Of a stretch of DNA of 64,000 nt, positions 14,443 to 55,786 are shown in pieces. The notes under the pieces were generated by a model. The model was not told the origin of the DNA and did not search any database. It was given only the letters and a program-made list of their open reading frames with translations. Position 1 is the stretch's first letter. Each line of letters starts with the position of its first letter. This DNA is from Cellulomonas soli (GTDB taxonomy: Bacteria; Actinomycetota; Actinomycetes; Actinomycetales; Cellulomonadaceae): positions 2,480,001 through 2,544,000 of the forward strand of contig NZ_JACBZJ010000001.1 of assembly GCF_013409305.1 (NCBI RefSeq). Direction: 5' to 3'. The position numbers and the translations under genes were made by a program.

Positions 14443-14619
14443 GATGCCCGGCCCGTGCGACACCCGAGGTGCTCGTCGGGTCCGCGGTGACCCGATCGGC
14501 CTAGCAGGACCACCCGACTGCCCGCCGGGGAACGCTCGCGGGGGCCCGTACGTTACGGCTGTGTCAACTCCTTCGGGACACGCACACAGGTCCTGCACCG
14601 GCTCTGCCACACTGCGCCC

Positions 14620-16101
14620 ATGGCATCGTCCCCCTCCGGAGCCGCGCCCACCGAGGCTCCCCCCGCAGCCCCCCTCCACCCCCTGGACCGCTTCTTCAAG
14701 ATCACCGAGCGTCGCTCGACGATCGGCACGGAGATCCGCGGCGGTCTGACCACGTTCTTCACGATGAGCTACATCATCGTGCTCAACCCGCTCATCATCG
14801 GCACGGTGCCCGACAGCACCGGGCACTACCTGGGCGGCGGCACGGAGCCGAACCTCGCCCTGGTCGCCGCAGCCACCGCGCTCGTGGCCGGCGTGCTCTC
14901 CATCCTGATGGGTGCCGTCGCGAACTTCCCGATCGCGCTCGCCGCGGGTCTGGGTCTCAACGCCGTCGTGGCCTACTCGATCGCGTCGCTGCCGGGCATG
15001 ACCTGGGCGGACGCGATGGGCATCGTGGTGCTCGAGGGCCTCGTGATCCTCGTGCTGGTGCTCACCGGGTTCCGGACCGCGGTGTTCAAGGCCGTCCCGC
15101 GCGAGATCAAGGTCGCGATCTCGGTCGGCATCGGCCTGTTCATCTCGCTCATCGGCTTCGTCGACGCCGGGTTCGTCCGCCCGGGCAACCCGGTGCTGCA
15201 GCTGGGCATCGACAACTCCCTGGCCGGTTGGCCGCTGCTCGTCTTCTCGATCGGCCTGCTCACCGCGATCATCCTCATGGTCAAGAAGGTCCGCGGCGGC
15301 CTGCTCATCGCGATCGTCGGCACGACGGTGCTCGCGGTCGTCGTCGAGCTCGTCGCGAACGTCGGTCTGTTCGGCGCCGAGAACGCCACCGGCTGGAAGC
15401 TGAACACGCCGGCGTTGCCCAGCTCGCTGGTCGAGGTGCCGGACTTCTCGCTGCTGGGCCAGTTCTCGCTGTTCGGCGCCTTCGGCAAGATCGGCTTCGT
15501 CGCCGTCGTGCTGCTGGTCTTCTCGCTGCTGCTGGCCGACTTCTTCGACACCATGGGCACGATGGTCGCCGTCGGTGCCGAGGCCGAGCTGCTCGACGAC
15601 GAGGGCAACCCGCCGAACATGGAGCGGATCCTGGTCGTGGACTCCCTGGCCGCCGTGGCCGGTGGTGTCGGCTCGGTCTCGTCGAACACCGCCTACATCG
15701 AGTCCGCCTCGGGTGTCGGTGACGGTGCGCGCACCGGTCTGGCCTCGGTCGTCACGGGTCTGGCGTTCCTCGTCGCGACCTTCCTGTCCCCGCTGGTCGA
15801 CATGGTCCCCTCCGAGGCGGCCGCCCCGGCCCTCGTGGTCGTCGGCTTCCTCATGGTCATGCAGGTCTCGGGCATCGACTGGAAGAACTACGAGATCGCG
15901 ATCCCGGCGTTCCTCACGATGATCCTCATGCCGTTCACCTACTCGATCACCGCGGGTATCGGCGCCGGCTTCATCGTCTACGTCGTCATCAAGGTCGCCG
16001 TCGGCAAGGCCAAGGCCGTGCACCCGCTCATGTGGGTGGCCGCCACGCTCTTCGTGCTCTACTTCGCGCTCGGCCCGATCAAGGACGCCATCGGGATCTG
16101 A
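14620..16101 (+). CDS. NCS2-family adenine/guanine/hypoxanthine permease
   Basis: This is a 493-residue integral membrane protein with about 12-14 hydrophobic segments. The AzgA/PbuG branch of the NCS2 purine transporters is indicated by LDRFFKITERRSTIGTEIRG, FFTMSYIIVLNPLII, LAAGLGLNAVVAYSI, the signature DFFDTMGTMVAVG, and SSNTAYIESASGVGDGARTG. The family imports adenine, guanine or hypoxanthine with protons. It is monocistronic: its 5' region (14443-14619) is shared with the divergent phosphatase gene. I see no purine riboswitch there. Confidence 0.93.
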   Translation: MASSPSGAAPTEAPPAAPLHPLDRFFKITERRSTIGTEIRGGLTTFFTMSYIIVLNPLIIGTVPDSTGHYLGGGTEPNLALVAAATALVAGVLSILMGAVANFPIALAAGLGLNAVVAYSIASLPGMTWADAMGIVVLEGLVILVLVLTGFRTAVFKAVPREIKVAISVGIGLFISLIGFVDAGFVRPGNPVLQLGIDNSLAGWPLLVFSIGLLTAIILMVKKVRGGLLIAIVGTTVLAVVVELVANVGLFGAENATGWKLNTPALPSSLVEVPDFSLLGQFSLFGAFGKIGFVAVVLLVFSLLLADFFDTMGTMVAVGAEAELLDDEGNPPNMERILVVDSLAAVAGGVGSVSSNTAYIESASGVGDGARTGLASVVTGLAFLVATFLSPLVDMVPSEAAAPALVVVGFLMVMQVSGIDWKNYEIAIPAFLTMILMPFTYSITAGIGAGFIVYVVIKVAVGKAKAVHPLMWVAATLFVLYFALGPIKDAIGI

Positions 16102-24514: not shown

Positions 24515-24703
24515 CCTCGAGCGGAACGCCGAACCCTGCCGCCGTCCGAGGTCCGCACGAACCGCCGGCAGGGGCGGGGGACCCAATCGCGGGCACCGGG
24601 AAGTTCACGGTGTCCTTGGGGTGAAGTCGCACGACGGCCTCGGCCGGACGGACGACCGGGTGTTCTCCCACCCGAACCCGACAGCTCACCTCGTAGGCGA
24701 TCA
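24515..24703 (+). promoter_or_regulatory. Cyclic di-AMP riboswitch (ydaO-yuaA type)
   Basis: The leader of the NlpC/P60 gene holds the conserved blocks of the ydaO-yuaA class in order: GCCGAACCCTGCC (24528-24540), GGGGGACCCA about 40 bases later, TCCTTGGGGTGAAG near 24612, and the signature CCCGAACCCGACAGCTCACC (24671-24690) followed by TCGTAGGCG. This class binds cyclic di-AMP and in actinobacteria usually turns off wall-hydrolase and Rpf-type genes. The boundaries are approximate. The ribosome site (AGGAGAGG) starts just after the signature, so translation or early termination could be the control point. Confidence 0.88.
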
Positions 24704-24716
24704 GGAGAGGCAACGC

Positions 24717-36284: not shown

Positions 36285-38480
36285 TCAGGCGTTGACGAGC
36301 TCGGGCTCGCGCTCCGGGGTGCTCTCCTGCAGCGCGTGCCCCTCGGTGTCGATGCGGGGCAGGACCTTGTCGAGCCACCGCGGGATCCACCAGGCCGACC
36401 TGCCGAGCAGGGACATCGCGGCCGGCATGAGGATCAGCCGGACGATGAAGGCGTCGGCCATGACCCCGATGAACAGCCCGAACGCGATCCCGGCGGCGAT
36501 GGCGAACGTCGAGGAGGCGAACCCGGCGAACACGACGGTCATGATCGTGGCGGCGGCGGCGAGCACCGGGGCGGCGCGGGAGAAGCCCTCGACGATGGCG
36601 TCCTTGGGTGCCATGCCGCGGTCGTGCATCTCCTTGATCCGTGAGACGAGGAAGACCTGGTAGTCCATGGCCAGGCCGAACAGGACCCCGACGAGCAGGA
36701 TCGGCAGCAGGCTCATCATCGGGTCGCCCTGCGCGGCGCGGACCAGCGGGAAGTTCCAGCCCCACTGGAAGACGGCCGTGCTGGCACCGAACGAGGCCAG
36801 GACGGAGAGCAGGTAGCCGGCCGTCGCGATCACGGGGATGAGGATCGAGCGGAACATCAGGACGAGCAGGGCCATCGAGATGAGCACGATGACGATGACG
36901 TACTTGATCAGGGCCGTGTTCAGGGCCGCGGTCTGGTCGATGCCGATGGCCGTCTCGCCGGTGACCTCCAGGCTCACGCCGGGCACCATCGTGTCCTCGT
37001 TCGCGCGGATCGTGTGGACGAGGTCCGTGGTGGACTCCTCGATCGGACCGCCGGTGGGGATGATCGTGACGCGGGCGATGTCGCCGCTGGCGCCGATCTC
37101 GGCCGGGGTGACCATGGCGACCCCGGGCAGGGCCGCGAGGGCCTCCTCGAGCTGGTCTGTGCTGCCGGTGACGTCGGCGCCCTCGGCCAGGACGATGAGC
37201 GGGCTCTGCACGCCGCCGAACTTGTCGACGATGAGGTTGTAGGCGGTGCGCTCGGTGGACTCCGGGTCGGCGCCGCCGGGGATGGTGAACGCGGTCTTCA
37301 TGGACAGGACCGGCAGGGCGACCGTGATGAGGATCGCTGCGCCGGCCAGCAGGGACAGCAGGGGGCGCTTGACGACCAGCGTGCCCCACGAGCGCAGGAA
37401 GCCGCGCTTGCCCGCGACGTCCTCGGTCCACAGGCGCCCGGCGGCCAGGTCCCGGCGGTGCTTCGTGGACAGCGCCTTGAGGCCCATGGTCTGCAGGAAC
37501 ACCGGCAGCAGCGTGAGGGACAGCAGCACGGCGACGAGGACGCCGAACGCCGCAGCGACACCCATCTCGGTGATGAAGCCGATGTTGGCGACCATGAGGG
37601 CCACGAGGGCGACGATGACCGTGGCACCGGCGAACACGACCGCCGTGCCGGCGGTCCCGGTGGCCCGGGCGATGGCGTCGGTGATCGTCTTGCCGCTGCG
37701 CACCTCCTGCTGGAAGCGGGAGACGATGAACAGGCCGTAGTCGATCCCGACGGCCAGGCCGAGCATCGAGGCCAGGATGATCGAGTTCTCACCGATCGGG
37801 GTGATCGACCCGTAGGCGAAGACGCCGAGGATGCCCACGCCGACACCGAACGCGGCGACCAGGAGGTTGGCCCCGGCGGCGCGCAGCGAGCCGAAGGTGA
37901 GGATCAGCACGAGGAACGCGGCCAGGACGCCGATCATCTCGCCGGCGCCCTGCTCAGGGGCACCGATCGCGACAAGGTTCCCTCCGAGCTGGACGCCGAG
38001 GTCGGTCGGGGCCTGCTCCTGCAGTGCGAGGGCTGCGTCGTAGGAGGCCTGCTGCCCGTCCTCGTCGAGGCCGACGAACGTCAGGGTCGACACCGCGACG
38101 CTCTGATCGGCGGAGATGTACGGGCTCGCAGGATCGAGCGGGTTGCTCACGGACTCCAGCCCGGGCAGCGCCGCGGCCTGGGCCAGCACGGCCTGGATCT
38201 GCTCGGCGACGGCCGGGTCGCTGACCGTGCCACCGTCCGGGGCGAACACCAGCTGCAGGGTCTGGGCGTCCGTGGCCGTCTGGGCGCTGGGGAACTCCTG
38301 GGCCATGAGCTCCAGGGCCTGCGTGGACCGAGAGCCGGGGATGGTGTCCGGGGCGGACTCGCCCATCCCGTTGACGCCGATGACGCCCGCCAGGCCGGCG
38401 AAGACGGCGAGCCACGCGATCACCACCACCGCACGGTGACGGGCGCTGAACCGCCCGAGCTTTGCGAGGAACGTTGACAT
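36285..38480 (-). CDS. MMPL/RND-family transporter
   Basis: This is a 731-residue RND-type exporter with about 12 membrane helices in two repeats, each with a large external loop after the first helix. The N-terminus (LGRFSARHRAVVVIAWLAVF) and the paired motifs VGIDYGLFIVSRFQQE and LAMDYQVFLVSRIKEM in the middle of each half are MmpL signatures; the Asp-Tyr pairs carry the proton path. Substrates in this family are lipids, siderophores or drugs; which applies here is open. The start at 38480 is divergent from the cysteine-leader/ABC operon. A palindrome about 95 bases upstream may be its operator. Confidence 0.92.
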   Translation of the reverse strand: MSTFLAKLGRFSARHRAVVVIAWLAVFAGLAGVIGVNGMGESAPDTIPGSRSTQALELMAQEFPSAQTATDAQTLQLVFAPDGGTVSDPAVAEQIQAVLAQAAALPGLESVSNPLDPASPYISADQSVAVSTLTFVGLDEDGQQASYDAALALQEQAPTDLGVQLGGNLVAIGAPEQGAGEMIGVLAAFLVLILTFGSLRAAGANLLVAAFGVGVGILGVFAYGSITPIGENSIILASMLGLAVGIDYGLFIVSRFQQEVRSGKTITDAIARATGTAGTAVVFAGATVIVALVALMVANIGFITEMGVAAAFGVLVAVLLSLTLLPVFLQTMGLKALSTKHRRDLAAGRLWTEDVAGKRGFLRSWGTLVVKRPLLSLLAGAAILITVALPVLSMKTAFTIPGGADPESTERTAYNLIVDKFGGVQSPLIVLAEGADVTGSTDQLEEALAALPGVAMVTPAEIGASGDIARVTIIPTGGPIEESTTDLVHTIRANEDTMVPGVSLEVTGETAIGIDQTAALNTALIKYVIVIVLISMALLVLMFRSILIPVIATAGYLLSVLASFGASTAVFQWGWNFPLVRAAQGDPMMSLLPILLVGVLFGLAMDYQVFLVSRIKEMHDRGMAPKDAIVEGFSRAAPVLAAAATIMTVVFAGFASSTFAIAAGIAFGLFIGVMADAFIVRLILMPAAMSLLGRSAWWIPRWLDKVLPRIDTEGHALQESTPEREPELVNA

Positions 38481-38573
38481 GGGTGAGTACTCCCGTTTGC
38501 AGAGGCGCCGTGAACACCACCGATCCTCGCGACGCCGCGCCGCCGGCGAATCAGGCAGACGGACCTCCTCGAC

Positions 38574-38589
38574 TACCGCATCGGCGGTA
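38574..38589. promoter_or_regulatory. Palindrome upstream of mmpL
   Basis: TACCGC-ATCG-GCGGTA is a perfect 6-4-6 inverted repeat in the divergent region between mmpL and the ABC operon, 94 bases from the mmpL start. It could be a TetR-type operator. No adjacent regulator gene is present. Confidence 0.4.
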
Positions 38590-38654
38590 CGCACCCACCC
38601 GCCGGCTACGCCGGGCGCAGCGTCGAACCGTCACCCGGTCCCGATGCCCGCTGC

Positions 38655-38660
38655 TAACCT
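38655..38660 (+). promoter_or_regulatory. -10 box placing the transcript start on the leader GTG
   Basis: TAACCT fits the actinobacterial TAnnnT -10 element. The GTG of the cysteine leader begins seven bases after it, which is where transcription should start, so the leader would be translated from a leaderless mRNA. The -35 region is weak (TCACCC at 38631-38636). Confidence 0.6.
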
Positions 38661-38667
38661 GACCCGC

Positions 38668-38742
38668 GTGACAGCAGCGACGACCCCGGACCGACGGCTC
38701 TCCGTCGCGCCCGCGGCCTGCTGTTGTCGGCCCCGACGCTGA
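38668..38742 (+). CDS. Poly-cysteine leader peptide (24 residues), candidate Cys attenuator
   Basis: This small reading frame of 24 codons plus TGA starts at a GTG placed at the predicted transcript start. The peptide begins VTAATTPDRRL and ends APAACCCRPRR, with three consecutive Cys codons (TGC TGT TGT) near the stop. Leaderless short ORFs with terminal Cys runs are known in mycobacteria as cysteine-responsive attenuators of sulfur-metabolism and transport operons: ribosome stalling at the Cys codons when Cys-tRNA is short changes the downstream mRNA fold. The genes that follow encode a cystine-type ABC importer, and a hairpin lies 10 bases after the leader stop. Promoter spacing, Cys run and downstream genes all agree. 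Confidence 0.75.
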   Translation: MTAATTPDRRLSVAPAACCCRPRR

Positions 38743-38752
38743 CCGCGTCGCC

Positions 38753-38769
38753 CGGCGCCTGAGGCGCCG
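38753..38769 (+). terminator. Hairpin after the Cys leader (possible attenuator element)
   Basis: CGGCGCC-TGA-GGCGCCG is a perfect 7-bp stem with a three-base loop, beginning 10 bases after the leader stop and 133 bases before the next gene. It could be the terminator or sequestering stem of an attenuator. Confidence 0.5.
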
Positions 38770-38901
38770 CCCCGGAGTCGCCTGGCCACCGTGCCCGGCA
38801 GGACTCCCTCCGCACCCGCCGCCGCACCACCCTGCGTGCCGCTGCGACCCGTCACCCCTTGCACGGCAGCACAGCCCGCCTCGTCGTCCGGAGGACCACC
38901 C

Positions 38902-39759
38902 ATGTCTGCTCGCACCCTCGTCCAGGGCCGCACCGCCCGCACCCGTGCCCTCGCCGCTGCTGCAGCAGCGGCCGCCGCCCTCGTCCTGACCGCCTGCGGC
39001 GCGGCATCGGGATCGGCCTCGGACGACGGGGCCGGCGCCGCGAGCACGGAGGCCGGCTCGGCTCTCGCGGCCGTGCAGGAGGCGGGCGTGCTGCGGGTCG
39101 GCACGGAGGGCACGTACGCGCCGTTCAGCTTCCACGACCCGTCCACCGACGAGCTGACCGGCTACGACATCGACGTGATCACCGCCGTGGCCGAGAAGCT
39201 CGGCGTGGAGCCCGAGTTCTCCGAGACCACCTGGGACTCGATCTTCGCGGGCCTGGAGTCGAAGCGGTACGACGTGATCGCGAACCAGGTGAGCATCACC
39301 GACGAGCGCCTCGCGAAGTACGACTTCAGCCAGCCGTACACGGTCTCCACCGGCGTGGTGGTCGTGCCGTCGGGGAACACCGACATCACCTCGCTGGCCG
39401 ACGTGGCGGGGAAGACCACCGCGCAGTCCGCGACCTCCAACTGGTCGCAGATCGCGACCGACGCGGGCGCGAACGTGGAGTCGGTCGAGGGCTTCACGCA
39501 GGCGATCGCGCTGCTCAAGCAGGGGCGGATCGACCTGACGTTCAACGACAACCTCGCCGTGCTGGACTACCTGAAGACCTCCGGCGACACCGACGTGAAG
39601 GTCGCGTTCGAGACCGACGACGTGGTCGAGCAGGGCTTCCCCGTGCTCAAGGGCTCGGACCTCGCCGCGGCCATCGACGACGCGCTCGCGGAGCTGCGCA
39701 CCGACGGCACGCTCGCCGAGATCTCCACGACGTGGTTCGGCGAGGACGTCTCCGAGTGA
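38902..39759 (+). CDS. Amino acid (cystine-type) ABC transporter binding lipoprotein
   Basis: This 285-residue binding protein is of family 3 (SBP_bac_3). Its signal peptide ends in the lipobox LVLTAC, so it is lipid-anchored outside the membrane. The core has GVLRVGTEGTYAPFSFHD, LTGYDIDVITAVAEKLG, WDSIFAGLESKRYDVIANQV and FSQPYTVSTGVVVVP, which match cystine binders of the TcyA/FliY group more closely than glutamate or arginine binders. The ATG at 38902 follows GGAGGACCACCC. Cystine specificity is inferred from family resemblance and from the poly-Cys leader upstream. It is the first gene of a three-gene importer operon. Confidence 0.85.
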   Translation: MSARTLVQGRTARTRALAAAAAAAAALVLTACGAASGSASDDGAGAASTEAGSALAAVQEAGVLRVGTEGTYAPFSFHDPSTDELTGYDIDVITAVAEKLGVEPEFSETTWDSIFAGLESKRYDVIANQVSITDERLAKYDFSQPYTVSTGVVVVPSGNTDITSLADVAGKTTAQSATSNWSQIATDAGANVESVEGFTQAIALLKQGRIDLTFNDNLAVLDYLKTSGDTDVKVAFETDDVVEQGFPVLKGSDLAAAIDDALAELRTDGTLAEISTTWFGEDVSE

Positions 39760-39787: not shown

Positions 39788-40456
39788 GTGAACGACTCGA
39801 CCTGGGAGCTGGTGCGCACGTCGATCGGCCCGCTGCTCGAAGGGGCGATCCGGGGGACCATCCCGCTGACGATCATCTCGTTCGCCCTGGGCCTGGTCAT
39901 CGCCCTGCTCGTGGCGCTCGCCCGGCTGTCGCCGATCCGTGCGCTCTCGTGGCTGGCGCGTGCGTACGTCTCGGTGATCCGCGGGACGCCGCTGCTGGTC
40001 CAGCTCTTCCTGATCTTCTACGCGCTGCCGTCCGTCGGGATCGTGCTCGACCCGTTCCCGTCGGCGATCATCGCGTTCTCGCTGAACGTCGGCGGGTACG
40101 CGGCCGAGACCATCCGGGCGGCGATCCTGTCGGTCCCGCGGGCGCAGTGGGAGGCGGCGTCGACGATCGGGTTCGGACCGACGCTGACGTTGCAGCGGGT
40201 GATCCTGCCGCAGGCCCTGCGGGTGTCCGTGCCGCCCCTGTCGAACACCTTCATCTCGCTGGTGAAGGACACCTCGCTCGCCTCGACGATCATGGTGACC
40301 GAGCTGCTGCGCAAGGCCCAGGAGATCGCGGCGCCGACGTACGAGTTCATGACCCTGTACTCGTTGGCCGCGGTGATCTACTGGCTGATCTGCCTGGTAC
40401 TCTCGTCCGTCCAGGGACGGCTCGAGCGGCGCCTCGACCGGTACGTGGCGACGTGA
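39788..40456 (+). CDS. Amino acid ABC transporter permease (TcyB/YecS type)
   Basis: This is a 222-residue permease of the HisM/GlnP class with about five membrane helices. Motifs: GTIPLTIISFALGLVIALLV, the family block YVSVIRGTPLLVQLF, LNVGGYAAETIRAAILSV and the EAA loop QWEAASTIGFGPTLTLQRVI, which docks to the ATPase. A single permease gene suggests it works as a homodimer, as in cystine importers. The start is a GTG, 28 bases after the binding-protein stop, and its stop overlaps the ATPase start. Confidence 0.92.
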   Translation: MNDSTWELVRTSIGPLLEGAIRGTIPLTIISFALGLVIALLVALARLSPIRALSWLARAYVSVIRGTPLLVQLFLIFYALPSVGIVLDPFPSAIIAFSLNVGGYAAETIRAAILSVPRAQWEAASTIGFGPTLTLQRVILPQALRVSVPPLSNTFISLVKDTSLASTIMVTELLRKAQEIAAPTYEFMTLYSLAAVIYWLICLVLSSVQGRLERRLDRYVAT

Positions 40457-41256
40457 CGGAGACCGACGTGACCGACGTGACCGACCCTCGCGCCGCGGGG
40501 CGCACCGCACCGCTGGTCCGGGTGCGTGCGCTGGCGAAGTCCTTCGGGGACAACCACGTGCTGCGCGGCATCGACCTCGACGTCGCCCCCGGCAGCGTCA
40601 CGGTGATCATCGGGCCGTCCGGCTCCGGCAAGACGACGCTGCTGCGCTGCCTCAACGCGCTGGATGTCCCGGACGCCGGCACGGTCGAGGTGGCGGGCGT
40701 GGCCCTGGACTTCGCCGGTCGCCGCACGCAGCCCGAGCTGCGTCGTCTGCGGGCGCAGTCGGGCATGGTCTTCCAGTCCCACCAGCTGTTCCCGCACCGC
40801 ACGGCGCTGGAGAACCTCATCGAGGGGCCGGTGCACGCGCAGCGTCGACCGGTCGCCGAGGCGACCGCCGCGGCCCGTGCCCTGCTGGAGAAGGTGGGCC
40901 TGGCGGCGAAGGCCGACGCGTACCCCCACGAGCTCTCGGGCGGGCAGCAGCAGCGGGTCGGCATCGCCAGGGCGCTGGCCCTGCGTCCCCAGCTGATCCT
41001 GTTCGACGAGCCGACCTCGGCGCTCGACCCCGAGACCGTCGGAGAGGTCCTCGCCGTCATGCGGGACCTCGCGGCCGAGGGCTGGACCATGATCGTCGTC
41101 ACCCACGAGATCCGGTTCGCCCAGCAGGTGGCCGACCACGTGGTGTTCATCGACGGCGGGGTCGTCGTCGAGGAGGGTGCGCCGGCCGACGTGCTCGGAC
41201 GGCCGGCCCACCAGCGGACCCGGCAGTTCCTGCGCCGCATCCTCGACCCGCTGTAG
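40453..41256 (+). CDS. Amino acid ABC transporter ATP-binding protein (TcyC type)
   Basis: This 267-residue ATPase has the Walker A motif IGPSGSGKTTLLRCLNALD, Q-loop VFQSHQLFPHRT, signature LSGGQQQRVGIARALA, Walker B LILFDEPTSALDPE and H-loop IVVTHEIRFA. It powers import with the two genes upstream. The GTG overlaps the permease stop. The first codons hold a short direct repeat (GACGTGACC twice). It ends the operon; 47 bases later starts a remnant region. Confidence 0.94.
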   Translation: MTETDVTDVTDPRAAGRTAPLVRVRALAKSFGDNHVLRGIDLDVAPGSVTVIIGPSGSGKTTLLRCLNALDVPDAGTVEVAGVALDFAGRRTQPELRRLRAQSGMVFQSHQLFPHRTALENLIEGPVHAQRRPVAEATAAARALLEKVGLAAKADAYPHELSGGQQQRVGIARALALRPQLILFDEPTSALDPETVGEVLAVMRDLAAEGWTMIVVTHEIRFAQQVADHVVFIDGGVVVEEGAPADVLGRPAHQRTRQFLRRILDPL

Positions 41257-47195: not shown

Positions 47196-48041
47196 ATGGC
47201 GCTGAGGGTCGCGACGCGCTGCCGGGTCGTCGTCGACAACGACTTCGCCGGTGACCCCGACGGGCTCGTGGCGCTCGCGCACCACCTGCTCTCGCCGGGG
47301 CACCGCGTGGACGCCGTGACCAGCTCGCGGCTGTCGCCGGTGTTCGGTCCGCCCGCCGGCGGCGCCGCGGCCGGGGCGGCGTACGCGGCCGAGCTGGTCG
47401 ACCTCGTCGGTGGGGCGGCCCGCCCGGTCGTCGCCGCCGGCGGGGACGTGCCGTTCGAGGAGACCCAGGGGCTGTCCGCCGCTGCCGCTCTCATCGTCGA
47501 GCAGGGCCGCCGGGACGACCCGCTCCCGCTGGTCCTGGTCTGCGGGGGACCGCTGACGACCGTCGCCGAGGCCCTGCGGGCGGCACCGGACCTCGTGGAC
47601 CGGATCACCCTGGCCTGGGTCGGCGGAGCGCGGTCCGCCGTCGAGGAGTACAACCGCGACACCGATCCGGCGGCCGCCGCGTTCGTGCTCGGCCTGCCCG
47701 GCCTGGCCGTGCGGCAGTTCCCGCTCGAGACGTACCGGCGCTGCGCGTGGAGCCTTGCGCAGGTCGAGGACCTGCTCAGCGGCGCCGGACCCCTGGGGGC
47801 CTGGTTGTGGCGGCGGTTCGTCGAGCTGCCGCTGCCGCCCGGGTTCGCCGTCGACGCGGTGTGGCCCCTCGGTGACAGCGCCCCGCTCATCGGCACGGCG
47901 CTGTCGCAGGAGTCGAGCACGTTCGAGCGGGCGTCGGACGGACCCGCCGACCGCCTCTTCTGCACGGACCTGGACACCTCGTTGCTGTTCGGCGACATGG
48001 TCGCCCTGTTCCGACGGCACGCCGCGGCCCACCCGGCCTGA
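47196..48041 (+). CDS. Inosine/uridine-type nucleoside hydrolase family protein
   Basis: This 281-residue protein has the nucleoside-hydrolase fold: the Ca-binding N-terminal motif in VVVDNDFAGDPDGLVALAHH, which replaces the usual DxDxxxDD, GGDVPFEETQGL, and the strand LVLVCGGPLTTVAEAL. C-terminal acid residues (CTDLDTSLL) could complete the metal site. Such enzymes cleave N-glycosidic bonds of ribonucleosides. In a glycoside operon it may act on an N- or O-riboside, or on a modified nucleoside imported by the same transporter; that is a guess. The ATG follows GGGGGCGGG. Confidence 0.82.
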   Translation: MALRVATRCRVVVDNDFAGDPDGLVALAHHLLSPGHRVDAVTSSRLSPVFGPPAGGAAAGAAYAAELVDLVGGAARPVVAAGGDVPFEETQGLSAAAALIVEQGRRDDPLPLVLVCGGPLTTVAEALRAAPDLVDRITLAWVGGARSAVEEYNRDTDPAAAAFVLGLPGLAVRQFPLETYRRCAWSLAQVEDLLSGAGPLGAWLWRRFVELPLPPGFAVDAVWPLGDSAPLIGTALSQESSTFERASDGPADRLFCTDLDTSLLFGDMVALFRRHAAAHPA

Positions 48042-48083
48042 CGTCGCCGCCCCGCCCCACCCCTGCGCCCCCGGAGAGCACCC

Positions 48084-50726
48084 ATGACCGCCGACCTGCA
48101 CCTCGACCCCGTCGTGGTCGAGCACCACCGCACGCCCCTCGGCATCGGGGAGCGCCGCCCGCGCCTGTCGTGGGCCGCCCGCACCGCGACGCCCGGGTGG
48201 CACCAGAGCGGCTACGAGCTCGAGGTCACCGACCCCGACGGCACGGTTGCCGCGGTGCGCACCGGTCACGTGACCTCCGACGAGCAGGTGCTCGTGGCGT
48301 GGCCGGCCGCACCTCTGGGCCCGTGCGAGCGGCGCGCGGTCCGGGTGCGCGTGTGGGGTCCGGGCGACGACGCGCCGTCGGCCTGGAGCGAGCCGACGGT
48401 GCTCGAGACGGGTCTGCTCGAGCCGGCCGGGTGGCAGGCCGTCATGGTCGGCCCGCGCCTGCCGGCCACCGGCGCCGAGGGGGAGCCGGCGGCGCTGCTG
48501 CGCGGGGCGGCGCACGTGCCGGGCGACGTCGTGCGGGCCCGCCTGCGGGTCACCGCGCACGGCGTCGTCACGGTGCACCTCAACGGCCAGGTGGTCGGCC
48601 AGGACGTGCTCACCCCCGGCTGGACCACGTACGAGCACCGCCTGCGCTACGCCACGCACGACGTCACCGATCTGCTGCGCGAGGGGTCGAACGTGCTCGG
48701 CGCCCACCTGGCCGACGGCTGGTACCGCGGGTTCCTCGGCTTCGCCGGGATGCGCGACGTCTACGGCGACCGCACGGGCGTGCTGCTGCAGCTCGAGGTG
48801 GACCACGCCGACGGCACCCGCACCGTGCTCGGCACGGACTCCTCGTGGCGCTGGACCCTCGGCCCGGTCACCCGCGCCGACCTGTACCTGGGCGAGACGC
48901 ACGACACGCGTCGCGAGCTGCCCGGCTGGGACGAGCCCGGGTTCGACGACACGGGCTGGCAGGCCGCCGACGTGCTGCCCTGCGACCTGTCACGCCTGGT
49001 GGAGCCCACCGGCCCCGGGGTGCGCCGCACCCAGGTGGTCGCCCCCGTCGAGATCCTCACCACCCCCGCCGGGGCCACGGTCGTGGACCTCGGTCAGAAC
49101 CTCGTCGGCCGCATGCGCCTGCACCTGCCCGACGCACCCGCCGGGACGGTCGTGCGGCTGCGCCACGCCGAGGTGCTCGAGCACGGCGAGCTCGGCACCC
49201 GCCCGCTGCGTGCCGCACGCCAGACCGACGAGATCGTGCTCGACGGCCGCGGGCCGCGCACCTGGGAGCCGTCGTTCACGACGCACGGCTTCCGCTACGT
49301 CGAGGTCACCGGCTGGCCGGGCGCGCTCAGCACGGCCGACCTCGAGGCCGTGGTGCTGCACACCGACCTGCGTCGCACCGGCACGTTCGCCTGCTCCGAC
49401 CCGCTGCTGGACCGCCTGCACGAGAACGTCGTGTGGGGCATGCGCGGCAACTTCCTCGACGTGCCCACCGACTGCCCGCAGCGCGACGAACGCCTCGGCT
49501 GGACCGGTGACCTGCAGGTCTTCGCCCCCACGGCCGCGTTCCTGTTCGACACCACCGGCATGCTCACCGGCTGGCTCGCCGACCTGGCCGCCGACCAGCA
49601 CGCCGACGGCGTCGTGCCGCCCTACGTGCCGATGGCCGCCATGGACCCGCACATGCCGCCGCTCGGCGCCGAGGCCGGCTGGGGCGACGCCGCGACCCTC
49701 GTGCCCTGGACGCTCTACGAGCGCACCGGCGACGCCGGGGTGCTGCGCACGCAGTGGTCGTCGATGGTCGCCTGGGTGGACGCGTTCGCGGCCCGCGCCG
49801 GCGACGACCTGGACTTCTCGTCCGGCGGGTTCTCGTTCGGGGACTGGCTCGACGCCTCGGCCCCCGACGACCAGCCGTGGAAGGCCCGCGTGCCGTGGCA
49901 GCTCGTCGCCACCGCGTACCTGGCCCGCTCGGCCCGCGTGCTCTCCCAGGCCGCCGAGGTCGTGGGGGAGTCGGACGCGGCCGTGCGCTACGGCGCGCTC
50001 GCGGACAGCGCCGCGGCCCGATTCCGTGCCGAGTACCTGACCCCCAGCGGCCGCGCCGCCTACCCCGCGCAGACCGCGTACGCGCTGGCCGTCGCCTTCG
50101 ACCTGCTGCTGCCCGAGCAGCGCGCGCACGCCGGGCAGCTGCTCGCCGAGCAGGTCGCCGCGGACGAGTTCCGCATCGGCACCGGGTTCCTGGGCACGCC
50201 CCTGGTGTGCGACGCGCTCGCGGACACCGGGCACGGCGCGACCGCCTGGCAGCTGCTGCTGCAGCGCGAGTGCCCGTCGTGGCTGTACGCCGTGACGATG
50301 GGTGCCACGACCGTCTGGGAGCGCTGGAACTCGATGCTGCCCGACGGGTCGATCAACCCCGGCGGCATGACCTCGTTCAACCACTACGCGTTCGGCGCCG
50401 TGGCGGACTTCCTGCACCGGCGCGTGGCCGGCCTGGCCCCTGCGGCACCGGGATACCGCCGGCTGCGCATCGCACCGCTGCCCACCCGCTCGCTCGACTG
50501 GGCCGCCGCGACGCACGAGACCCCTTACGGGACCGCCGCCGTGCGGTGGGAACGCACCGGGGACGACGTCGTGCTCACCGTGCTGGTCCCACCGTCGACG
50601 ACGGCGCAGGTGGTGCTTCCCGACGGCTCCGAGCCCGTCGAGCTCGCGCCAGGGGAGCACCTGCTCGCGTTCACCCTGCCGCCCGAGCGTGCGGCTGAGC
50701 GTGCGGCGGAGTTCTCCGCCGGGTGA
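48084..50726 (+). CDS. GH78 alpha-L-rhamnosidase
   Basis: This is an 880-residue inverting glycosidase that removes terminal alpha-L-rhamnose. Order: N-terminal beta domain (about 1-110), Bac_rhamnosid_N domain with HEHRLRYATHDVTDLL-like strands and VLGAHLADGWYRGFLGF, the concanavalin-like domain, the (alpha/alpha)6 catalytic barrel from about residue 430 (DVPTDCPQRDERLGWTGD with the acidic pair; AGWGDAATLVPW), TTVWERWNSMLPDG and SFNHYAFGAVADF, then the C-terminal beta domain. No signal peptide is seen, so it is intracellular. It is the last gene of the operon and suggests that rhamnosides such as flavonoid rutinosides are the substrates. Confidence 0.94.
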   Translation: MTADLHLDPVVVEHHRTPLGIGERRPRLSWAARTATPGWHQSGYELEVTDPDGTVAAVRTGHVTSDEQVLVAWPAAPLGPCERRAVRVRVWGPGDDAPSAWSEPTVLETGLLEPAGWQAVMVGPRLPATGAEGEPAALLRGAAHVPGDVVRARLRVTAHGVVTVHLNGQVVGQDVLTPGWTTYEHRLRYATHDVTDLLREGSNVLGAHLADGWYRGFLGFAGMRDVYGDRTGVLLQLEVDHADGTRTVLGTDSSWRWTLGPVTRADLYLGETHDTRRELPGWDEPGFDDTGWQAADVLPCDLSRLVEPTGPGVRRTQVVAPVEILTTPAGATVVDLGQNLVGRMRLHLPDAPAGTVVRLRHAEVLEHGELGTRPLRAARQTDEIVLDGRGPRTWEPSFTTHGFRYVEVTGWPGALSTADLEAVVLHTDLRRTGTFACSDPLLDRLHENVVWGMRGNFLDVPTDCPQRDERLGWTGDLQVFAPTAAFLFDTTGMLTGWLADLAADQHADGVVPPYVPMAAMDPHMPPLGAEAGWGDAATLVPWTLYERTGDAGVLRTQWSSMVAWVDAFAARAGDDLDFSSGGFSFGDWLDASAPDDQPWKARVPWQLVATAYLARSARVLSQAAEVVGESDAAVRYGALADSAAARFRAEYLTPSGRAAYPAQTAYALAVAFDLLLPEQRAHAGQLLAEQVAADEFRIGTGFLGTPLVCDALADTGHGATAWQLLLQRECPSWLYAVTMGATTVWERWNSMLPDGSINPGGMTSFNHYAFGAVADFLHRRVAGLAPAAPGYRRLRIAPLPTRSLDWAAATHETPYGTAAVRWERTGDDVVLTVLVPPSTTAQVVLPDGSEPVELAPGEHLLAFTLPPERAAERAAEFSAG

Positions 50727-50875: not shown

Positions 50876-51871
50876 GTGCGCGCGTTCGGCATCACCGGGT
50901 ACAAGCAGCCCCTGACCGCCCTCGACGTCCCCGAGCCGACCGTCGGTGCCCACGACGTCCTGGTGAACGTCGAGGCCGCCGGGCTCAACCACCTGGACGA
51001 GAAGCTCCGCACCGGGGAGTTCAAGGCGATCCTGCCGTACAAGACCCCGCTCGTCCTGGGGCACGACGTGGCCGGCACCGTGATCCGCGTGGGTGCTCAG
51101 GTGCGCGAGTTCGAGCCCGGCGACCGCGTCTACGCGCGCCCGGGCACGCACCAGATCGGCACGTTCGCCGAGCGGGTCGCGGTCGCGGAGGCCGACGTGG
51201 CACCCATGCCCGCCTCGCTGAGCACGGAGCAGGCGGCCGGTCTGCCCCTGGTGGCGCTGACCGCCTGGCAGGCGATGGTCGAGCGCGGCCATCTGCGTGC
51301 AGGTCAGAAGGTCCTGATCCACGCCGGTGCCGGTGCGGTCGGCTCGATCGCGATCCAGCTCGCCAAGCACCTGGGCGCGCACGTGGCAACCACGGCGAGT
51401 GGCCCGGGCCTGGACCTGGTGCGCGAGCTCGGCGCCGATGTCGCCATCGACTACCGCACCGAGGACTTCGCGGCCGAGCTGACCGGCTACGACCTGGTCC
51501 TGGACAGCCTCGGCGGGGACAACCTCATCCGCTCGCTGCGCATCCTCGCCCCGGGCGGCAAGGCCATCGGCATCGCCGGACCGCCCGAGCCGACCTACGC
51601 CCGTGAGGCCGGTCTGAACCCGCTCGTGCGCCTGGCCGTCCGTGCGCTGAGCAGCAAGGTCCGCCGCGAGGCCAAGAAGCAGGGCGTGTCCTACGAGTTC
51701 CTGTTCATGCACGCCGACGGCGCCCAGCTGCGTCAGATCAGCGCCCTGATCGAGGACGGCACGATCCGCCCCCTGTCGGTCGAGACCTTCGCGTTCGACC
51801 AGACCCCCGACGCCCTCGCCGCGCTCGCCGCCGGACGCATCCGCGGCAAGGCTGTCATCACCCGCTCCTGA
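50876..51871 (+). CDS. NADPH:quinone reductase-like zinc-independent MDR
   Basis: This is a 331-residue medium-chain reductase. The N-terminal GroES-like domain (GITGYKQPLTALDVPEPTVG; LNHLDEKLRTGEF; VLGHDVAGTVIRVG) and the Rossmann motif GAGAVGSIAIQLAKHLGA are those of quinone oxidoreductases, and the zinc-binding cysteines of alcohol dehydrogenases are absent. It reduces quinones or enones with NADPH. The GTG at 50876 follows GAAGGAGCC. It is the first gene of a two-gene operon with an alpha/beta hydrolase and is probably repressed by the TetR encoded at 54919. Confidence 0.92.
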   Translation: MRAFGITGYKQPLTALDVPEPTVGAHDVLVNVEAAGLNHLDEKLRTGEFKAILPYKTPLVLGHDVAGTVIRVGAQVREFEPGDRVYARPGTHQIGTFAERVAVAEADVAPMPASLSTEQAAGLPLVALTAWQAMVERGHLRAGQKVLIHAGAGAVGSIAIQLAKHLGAHVATTASGPGLDLVRELGADVAIDYRTEDFAAELTGYDLVLDSLGGDNLIRSLRILAPGGKAIGIAGPPEPTYAREAGLNPLVRLAVRALSSKVRREAKKQGVSYEFLFMHADGAQLRQISALIEDGTIRPLSVETFAFDQTPDALAALAAGRIRGKAVITRS

Positions 51872-51918
51872 GCCCGCCCCGACCCCACCGGCTTCCGACC
51901 AGCACGAGGAGCACCATC

Positions 51919-52779
51919 GTGAGCACGACCGCCAACGACCCCGTCATCACCTCGTACGCGAAGGCGCCGACCAGGACCATCACCGCGGGTGGGGACACGT
52001 TCGCCTACCGCGAGCTCGGCCCGAGGGGTGGCATCCCGGTCGTCTTCTTCGTGCACCTGGCCGCGACCCTCGACAACTGGGACCCCCGCATCGTCGACGC
52101 GATCGCGGCCACGCGGCACGTCGTCGCCTTCGACCAGCTCGGTGTCGGCGCGTCCAGCGGAAAGGTCCGCGACACCCTCGAGGAGGCCGCCGACGACGCC
52201 TACCGGTTCGTCGCCGCACTCGGTCACGACACGATCGACGTCTTCGGCTTCTCCATGGGCGCGATGATCGCCCAGGACCTCGTGGTCAAGCACCCCGACC
52301 TGGTTCGCAGGCTCGTCCTGACCGGCACGGGCCCGCGCGGCGGCACGGACATCGACAAGGTCGTGGGCACCACCTACGGGGACGTCCTGCGCGCGACCCT
52401 GACCCGTTCGGACCCCAAGGAGTTCTTGTTCTTCAACCGCGACGCCGCGGGCAAGAAGGCTGCCAAGGCGTTCGTGGCCCGCCTGAAGGAGCGCACCGTG
52501 GACCGTGACAAGGACGTCACGCTGCCCGCGTTCCGCACCCAGCTCAAGGCGATCCAGCGCTACGGGCGGTCCGCCCCGTCCGACCTGTCGGTCATCACCG
52601 GTCCGACCCTGATCGCCAACGGCGACAACGACCGCATGGTTCCGTCGGTGCTCTCCGAGGACCTGCATCGGCGCATCGTCGGGTCCGAGCTGATCATCTA
52701 CCCGAGCTCCGGGCACGGCGGGATCTTCCAGTACTGGGAGGAGTTCGCCCCCGTCGCCGCGACGTTCCTCTCCGAGTAG
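51919..52779 (+). CDS. Alpha/beta-fold hydrolase
   Basis: This is a 286-residue hydrolase. The nucleophile elbow GFSMGAM (Ser), the acid in NGDNDRMVP (Asp) and the histidine in SSGHGGIFQY form the expected triad; the oxyanion region is FFVHLAATLDNWD. LGVGASSGKVRDTLEEAADD is typical of the haloperoxidase/esterase-like group. The substrate is unknown; the partners suggest a role in clearing reactive carbonyl or quinone compounds. The GTG start lies 47 bases after the reductase stop, and a long terminator follows. Confidence 0.92.
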   Translation: MSTTANDPVITSYAKAPTRTITAGGDTFAYRELGPRGGIPVVFFVHLAATLDNWDPRIVDAIAATRHVVAFDQLGVGASSGKVRDTLEEAADDAYRFVAALGHDTIDVFGFSMGAMIAQDLVVKHPDLVRRLVLTGTGPRGGTDIDKVVGTTYGDVLRATLTRSDPKEFLFFNRDAAGKKAAKAFVARLKERTVDRDKDVTLPAFRTQLKAIQRYGRSAPSDLSVITGPTLIANGDNDRMVPSVLSEDLHRRIVGSELIIYPSSGHGGIFQYWEEFAPVAATFLSE

Positions 52780-55713: not shown

Positions 55714-55786
55714 GCGCCTGTAGCTCAGGGGATAGAGCACCGCTCTCCTAAAGCGGGTGTCGGCAGTTCGAATCTGCCCAGGCGCA
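55714..55786 (+). tRNA. tRNA-Arg (anticodon CCU)
   Basis: This is a complete 73-base cloverleaf: acceptor GCGCCTG/CAGGCGC, D arm GCTC-AGGGGATA-GAGC, anticodon stem CCGCT/AGCGG with loop CTCCTAA (anticodon CCT), T arm GGCAG-TTCGAAT-CTGCC and discriminator A. CCA is not encoded. It reads AGG. Its 3' end is the attachment site of the island that follows. Confidence 0.97.

Follow-up and report, generated by a model that had tools for sequence, protein, structure and literature searches.

Upstream of a putative cystine importer operon of Cellulomonas soli lies a short open reading frame (sORF) that ends in a cluster of cysteine codons, and the locus raises the question of whether ribosomes translating this frame sense the supply of cysteine on behalf of the importer and, if so, how the signal is read out. 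The locus was analysed within a 64 kb window, positions 2480001-2544000 of the single-contig 4.26 Mb genome, and coordinates refer to this window unless stated otherwise. Judged from sequence, it is highly probable that the leader is a cysteine-responsive attenuator acting via a leaderless-type sORF, the readout being Rho or some other transcriptional or translational step.

The region upstream of the importer carries an extended -10-like element, TGC-TAACCT (38652..38660, plus strand), with the hexamer TAACCT at 38655-38660 and the TG of the extended form at 38652-38653. After a spacing of 7 nt a GTG start codon (38668-38670) opens the sensor ORF, 24 codons and a TGA (38668..38742, plus strand, VTAATTPDRRLSVAPAACCCRPRR), identified from the sequence and by comparison within the genus. 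Three cysteine codons, TGC TGT TGT, occupy 38719..38727, and the frame ends CCCRPRR-stop with the TGA at 38740-38742. Direct reading of the sequence confirms this arrangement, a TAACCT 5' of a GTG that opens a 24-codon frame with a Cys cluster, as it had been described in an earlier note on this DNA. We infer a transcript start at or adjacent to the GTG (predicted position 38668). Neither this sensor ORF nor any of its counterparts at the genus loci described below (0/21) is preceded by a Shine-Dalgarno-like (SD) motif. The importer gene itself has such a motif upstream in 21/21 loci, here the GGAGGA at 38890..38895 ahead of the ATG at 38902. A promoter scan returned no sigma-70 consensus pair, nor was a conserved sigma-70 -35 element found. 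When leaderless Cys ORFs were defined by an ATG or GTG start, 6-40 codons, at least two Cys per nine residues and a -10-like hexamer 5-8 nt upstream, the sensor ORF before the importer was the single match on both strands of the window. A longer ATG frame starting at 38479 enters the same reading frame. The resemblance to the nearest relative (L007) is of a promoter-DNA type 5' of the GTG, and from the Cys run through the stop every change between the two genomes is synonymous; among the relatives compared, the C-terminal Cys/Arg portion likewise keeps its amino acids while the nucleotides vary. A search of 38300-39100 against Rfam was empty at E values up to 1. Elsewhere in the window, both on the plus strand, are a c-di-AMP riboswitch at 24517-24714 (RF00379, 62.6 bits) and a tRNA gene at 55714-55786 (RF00005).

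The operon downstream encodes, on the plus strand, a substrate-binding lipoprotein of cystine type (SBP_bac_3, PF00497; 38902..39759), an ABC permease of cystine type (39788..40456) and a TcyN-like ABC ATPase (40471..41256, the start uncertain by some codons). NCBIfam cystine-transport models rank first for all three subunits and none reaches its curated cut-off, the scores being 188.7 bits for the binding protein with NF008426 (cut-off 312), 263.9 for the permease with NF011680 (cut-off 300; NCBIfam comparison only) and 329.9 for the ATPase with NF008428 (cut-off 406). The solved structure closest to the binding protein is 2YLN (E 6e-64), described in the accessible text as the protein that binds L-cystine in N. 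gonorrhoeae (PMC7170509). The best matches of the three subunits thus support an importer of cystine type with a predicted ligand. The earlier naming of a TcyABC-like importer stands in that cystine models are best for every subunit, but all of them score below the NCBI curated cut-offs.

An orthologue of the binding protein (E<=1e-60) is present in 24 of 81 Cellulomonas genomes, at 25 places, of which one at a contig edge (L010) lacks upstream DNA and was left out. In 21 of the remaining 24 upstreams, a 19-28-codon ORF with a Cys cluster begins 6-7 nt past a -10-like element, the definition for this count using 8-35 codons and a -10 of the form TAnnnT or TGnTnnnAT; the second form was added after the genus data had been inspected, and TAnnnT alone gives 12/24. 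The 21 loci are related and fall by eye into about seven sequence groups. Two hundred dinucleotide-shuffled sets gave a mean of 0.03/24 matches (maximum 1), the antisense strand of the importer upstreams 0/24 and the upstreams of paralogous binding proteins 0/13. A TGn stands ahead of the hexamer in 19 of the 21 sensor-carrying loci. By these counts the Cys ORF before the importer is more than chance, and one refuting outcome named beforehand, that relatives would lack these Cys codons, was not seen, the cluster being kept in 21/24 genus upstreams. Clusters of Ala, Arg and Thr occur in leaderless-type ORFs of 21, 21 and 19 of the same 24 upstreams; since these are nearly as frequent, the comparison between amino acids is by itself not specific to Cys. 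A clear Cys ORF is missing from three in-genus importers (L015 and L122 without one, L125 ambiguous). N-termini, lengths and Cys numbers of the sensors drift, and what is kept is the position of the Cys codons close to the stop: there are 2-5 of them, the final one 0-4 residues ahead of the TGA (for instance VTSTPAPARRSPVAPGSCCCRPRR, MTTTSRDALVVACRACRCCR, MTSAPVHHATTVACRRCCRR and MRDELTTTTATAVARACRRHCCRR). In most importer sensors Arg codons, often CGC or CGT, stand between and after the Cys codons (e.g. L008, L016, L021), and TGTCGC-TGA is a common sensor end.

Beyond Cellulomonas, named genomes searched with a profile yielded 573 importer loci, and the definition was matched at five of the best 80 (shuffle mean 0.86, maximum 4). 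The ORFs of Flavimobilis marinus (L067) and an uncultured Cellulomonadaceae member (L072) both end SCCPACCLRCC; the others belong to a genome recorded as Arcanobacterium haemolyticum ET43 (L060), an actinomycetote MAG (L046) and a member of the Bacillota (L085). From their sequences the first four look convincing as sensor carriers, and the Bacillota match is probably due to chance. With five matches among the best 80 of 573 loci, no wide spread of the importer device was found, and among the loci listed it is mostly a feature of the Cellulomonas branch.

The same design recurs at other sulfur genes of the C. soli genome. Twelve stretches (80.5 kb), taken for their PALP, PAPS-reductase or Cys_Met_Meta_PP genes or for one of three binding-protein paralogues, were scanned and gave two matches only, each with TAACCT 7 nt ahead of the start. 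One, VSMCRPCAVPADTRACCLRSI (L147:7716; genome position 3562715, minus strand), precedes a nitrite/sulfite-reductase-type gene with PF01077 and PF03460 domains, which lines up with cysH and cysD genes as in an operon. The other, MSCRRMCR (L151:2758; genome position 2316257, minus strand), precedes metY, which matches NF005872 above its cut-off. Within the genus the sulfite-reductase-type gene occurs in 55/81 genomes, and a Cys-rich ORF precedes it at 29 of the 30 loci taken (L159-L188; e.g. VIAPGFRLSCRCMCTVAADLCVCCCPRSN). These short ORFs often contain two Cys clusters, and in many the hexamer is a weaker, CAnnCT-like one 6 nt 5' of a GTG, the strict leaderless-Cys-ORF definition being passed by 1/30. 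The metY match is present in 78/81 genomes, and at 29 of 30 loci (L189-L218) an ORF of 7-8 codons ending RMCR follows a TAnnnT placed 5-8 nt before its ATG. The two loci without an ORF, L174 (sulfite-reductase-type) and L211 (metY), are short stretches. Stretches of 451 bases containing the C. soli metY and sulfite-reductase leaders likewise had no Rfam hit at E values up to 1.

The metY ORF sits in a nearly invariant block, CGAATGTGTCGCTGA-CCAGCGCAC, as seen in an alignment of 23 of the 29 leaders from which a covariance model was also built. This model has matches in 24/149 genomes of the order, at 25 places (L219-L240 among the loci); an RMC(C)R peptide is found at 21 places, 18 of them outside Cellulomonas in at least six families, and at 16 of the 21 a metY start is readable. 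The match L238 is without Cys, and L241-L243 look false. According to the accessible part of one report, the leaderless metL of S. lividans, located before metNIQ, encodes a peptide containing CMCRRMC that was read as a methionine sensor (PMC8079986). The resemblance of this peptide to the metY RRMC peptide suggests a sensor for Cys, or for Met and Cys together. Shared boxes, GAGACG or GACGnnnGTTCC-like, lie 30-45 nt before the ORF start at metY loci and at five importer loci (L016-L018, L021, L022), and are possibly the operator of a common transcription factor; visual inspection of the leader in the window showed none.

The choice of cysteine codons in the sensors differs from that in the genes. 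At these loci the sulfite-reductase-type and metY genes use TGC for all 182 of their Cys codons and TGT for none (seven of eight own-genome reference genes counted), while TGT makes up 56 of the 72 Cys codons of the importer sensors, 28 of 36 in the metY sensors (28 loci) and 72 of 195 in the sulfite-reductase-type sensors. As the background of TGT is 19% in non-coding leader DNA (18/95) and 23% in the window over all frames, the importer and metY sensors have more TGT than even neutrality would predict, with binomial p of 5e-27 and 4e-14, respectively (relatedness ignored). For metY the bias is weaker evidence, because the nucleotides of the metY block are nearly invariant. Across the class, sulfite reductase was matched in 72/98 genomes and 29 loci besides that of C. 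soli were taken, one of which (L267, 133 nt upstream) was dropped from the counts; an ORF with at least three Cys in nine residues was found in 5 of the 28 upstreams examined, with TGT at 11/23 in these five ORFs versus 10/146 in the genes. A single tRNA-Cys presumably reads both codons. The bias suggests selection for a slow synonym, which would make the response of such a sensor to starvation sharper. It also offers a handle for spotting sensors of this kind that gene callers overlook.

Is the ORF then a sensor at all? A functionless frame arising by chance in a high-GC leader could be imagined from how commonly short ORFs with a pair of Cys codons turn up once the promoter constraint is removed (loci up to L096), but a match in 21/24 genus upstreams against 0.03/24 in shuffled sequence, together with the sole match in the 64 kb window, deprives this reading of practically all probability. 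The frame might instead encode a Cys/Arg-rich micropeptide acting in trans, by redox or metal binding, its position before the importer being an operonic one. The retention of the C-terminal Cys/Arg part as amino acids despite nucleotide changes agrees with such a role, whereas the free variation of length, N-terminus and Cys number (2-5 Cys in 19-28 codons), the occurrence of the same design with unrelated peptides before other sulfur genes and the use of a rare synonym for the sensor Cys codons argue against it, and we consider a micropeptide very improbable. The readout of the sensor offers more room. Classical attenuation, in which a stall at the Cys codons toggles an antiterminator against an intrinsic terminator, would assign the latter role to structures including the perfect 7-bp hairpin CGGCGCC-TGA-GGCGCCG (38753..38769, plus strand; p=0.05 for this leader). 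Indeed, strong local hairpins follow shortly past the stop in many leaders, the best one within 45 nt having p<0.1 in 14/21, and terminators lacking a U-run remain conceivable in high-GC bacteria. However, these hairpins are unlike in sequence and place, no U-run terminator was found within 38400-39000, where the 38753-38769 hairpin has no U-run either, and only 5/21 leaders have a stop-spanning hairpin with p<=0.1. The hairpin as a conserved terminator, and the stop-spanning hairpin as a general feature, were both rejected, and classical attenuation appears improbable. In the earlier note the leader had been proposed as a cysteine-responsive attenuator, with a perfect hairpin after the ORF: the hairpin is there, but its sequence and position vary among relatives and it is not the conserved part, while the sensor half of the proposal has gained from the retention of the Cys ORF in 21/24 upstreams and from two further sulfur leaders.

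The same sensor could also act on translation, if the leader folds over the importer ribosome-binding site (RBS) and a stall at the Cys codons breaks the fold, which is the mechanism reported for M. smegmatis. When base pairing of the sORF was forbidden as far as the leading edge of a ribosome placed at the last Cys, the accessibility of the importer SD region was essentially unaltered in 19 of 21 leaders (means 0.53 and 0.57), bearing in mind that long-range or kinetic folds may escape a thermodynamic calculation on a single strand. Only in L021 and L022 did masking by the ribosome lift the accessibility, from 0.32-0.39 to about 0.63, as this reading predicts, and a group of ten leader sequences gave no consensus fold. 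RBS masking is therefore not supported by folding in 19/21 leaders, and we regard it as rather unlikely.

Attention turns to the 159-nt trailer between the sensor ORF and the importer gene (38743..38901, plus strand), a candidate Rho-utilisation (rut) region. According to the accessible text of one study, ruts are rich in YC, have a high C:G ratio and lack extensive structure (PMC12121999). The trailer has a C content of 0.50 and a G content of 0.29, is rich in YC, and lies at the 99.8th percentile of the window for C minus G and at the 99.5th for YC. When the plus strand was tiled in 150-base pieces at intervals of 10, C minus G peaked at 38801-38950, in the importer leader. Other top tiles on this strand, 14551-14730, 47991-48160 and 51801-51950 (0.23-0.26), are comparable with the importer leader and are possible further rut-like stretches. 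C minus G averages 0.22 over the importer trailers, while 150-nt windows taken from both strands average 0.00 (s.d. 0.073). The 21 sORF leaders were also compared with 39 orthologous upstreams lacking the sORF, drawn from 79 named loci after setting aside 25 without a start by rule, the Bacillota, the four sORF carriers and loci with less than 150 nt or less than 60% G+C. C minus G is 0.226 in the leaders versus 0.045 in these upstreams, reaching at least 0.20 in 12/21 versus 0/39, with YC dinucleotides at 0.31 versus 0.19 and a C:G ratio of 1.80 versus 1.16. The two measurable in-genus exceptions give -0.013 (L122) and 0.02 (L125), the four sORF carriers outside the genus 0.10-0.27 and paralogue trailers a mean of 0.01 (n=11). 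Since the C excess accompanies the sORF and not the upstreams without it, sensor and rut-like trailer tend to co-occur. Two leaders show little C excess (L019 at the 86th percentile, L126 at the 94th), and in the sulfite-reductase-type and metY leaders C minus G averages only 0.10.

Because masked folding does not free the importer RBS and the leaders share a rut-like trailer, the readout is probably unlike the mycobacterial one, and Rho-dependent attenuation is favoured over RBS masking of the mycobacterial type. Transcription beginning at or beside the GTG at 38668 would let a ribosome load straight onto the 5' end and translate the 24-codon ORF. With ample Cys-tRNA it would clear the three Cys codons, terminate at the UGA a few codons on and depart, the bare trailer (38743-38901) would become accessible to Rho, and transcription would be ended before the importer gene or early within it. 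With scarce Cys-tRNA the ribosome would wait at the Cys codons and hinder the loading or catch-up of Rho, so that the importer would be made. Translation of the ORF, stalling, the response to cysteine, the Rho readout and the opposition of the stalled ribosome to Rho are all steps that we infer. A point against the Rho readout is that the footprint of a stalled ribosome would leave most of the trailer uncovered, and, given a cysteine-responsive attenuator, we put a Rho-type readout at only slightly better than an even chance.

If attenuation of this kind operates, ribosomes read the cysteine supply directly outside mycobacteria too, and for the import of cystine besides the synthesis of cysteine. 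The comparative set of 21 importer, 29 sulfite-reductase-type and 29 metY leaders is also one in which RBS masking and Rho predict opposite outcomes. The most far-reaching model is that of a distinct attenuator, in which a leaderless sORF with UGU sensor codons avoided by the genes and a Rho-utilisation trailer together gate the transcription of cystine import, this being one of the outputs of a sulfur regulon that ribosomes would read throughout the genus. Such a regulon would also include the sulfite-reductase-type operon and metY, the latter with a uORF ending RMCR in several families of the order. This full model is put forward tentatively, its probability falling somewhat short of even.

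Attenuation by leaderless polycysteine sORFs was reportedly shown in M. smegmatis by Canestrari in 2020, together with masking of the RBS. The mycobacterial principle is restated in the accessible parts of later papers (PMC13236596, PMC9031893; also PMC9094748). The Cellulomonas leader shares with this type the clustered Cys codons, the leaderless-type short ORF, the cysteine and sulfur genes downstream, the -10 spacing of 6-7 nt (21/24 loci), the lack of an SD motif, the position of Cys near the ORF end and, presumably, stalling on scarce Cys-tRNA. It differs in serving a cystine-type importer and in belonging to another order of actinobacteria, and RBS masking is unsupported by folding in 19/21 Cellulomonas leaders, for which last reason the leader is viewed as a variant set apart from the mycobacterial type. 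The rut-like trailer and the dominance of UGU among the Cys codons may also set the Cellulomonas leader apart. Compared with the TcyABC and FliY-YecSC cystine importers, which provide the best family match for each subunit as well as the L-cystine type of the closest binding-protein structure, the importer of the window scores under the curated cut-offs and its cystine ligand is a prediction.

Further uORF leaders with a Rho site are tnaC and mgtL. In topAI/toiL of E. coli a uORF is likewise combined with a YC-rich segment of C over G; there, as far as the accessible text goes, the signal is another one and the uORF masks the SD with Rho following, whereas the Rho readout in Cellulomonas is a prediction (PMC12121999). 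The uORFC-8-2 of Rhodobacterales, a Cys uORF before cysS, shares with the Cellulomonas leader the tandem Cys codons in the uORF of a cysteine-related gene, but is described in the accessible text with conserved stems, a U-run terminator and UGC as the dominant codon, while the Cellulomonas leader has no U-run and is dominated by UGU (PMC8632094). Closest in kind are the predictions of Seliverstov et al. 2005 (PMC1262725), whose accessible text places Cys leader peptides upstream of cys operons in Mycobacterium and Propionibacterium acnes, and of cbs in Bifidobacterium longum, and suggests Rho from polyY motifs. As in Cellulomonas, the short ORFs of these leaders carry their Cys runs close to the stop and, in that text, no terminator is present; the Cellulomonas case is distinguished by its importer target, the larger comparative set and a C excess quantified against controls. 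An extension beyond mycobacteria, as the earlier note had it, was hence already available as a prediction, and what is new in it is the cystine-type importer as target. The literature searched, in which subscription papers lay mostly outside the coverage, contained no such importer case and no leaderless cysteine leader of Cellulomonas. As far as that literature goes, the cystine-type importer target, the comparative support from across the genus, the bias towards UGU and the rut-like trailer that accompanies the sensor are new.
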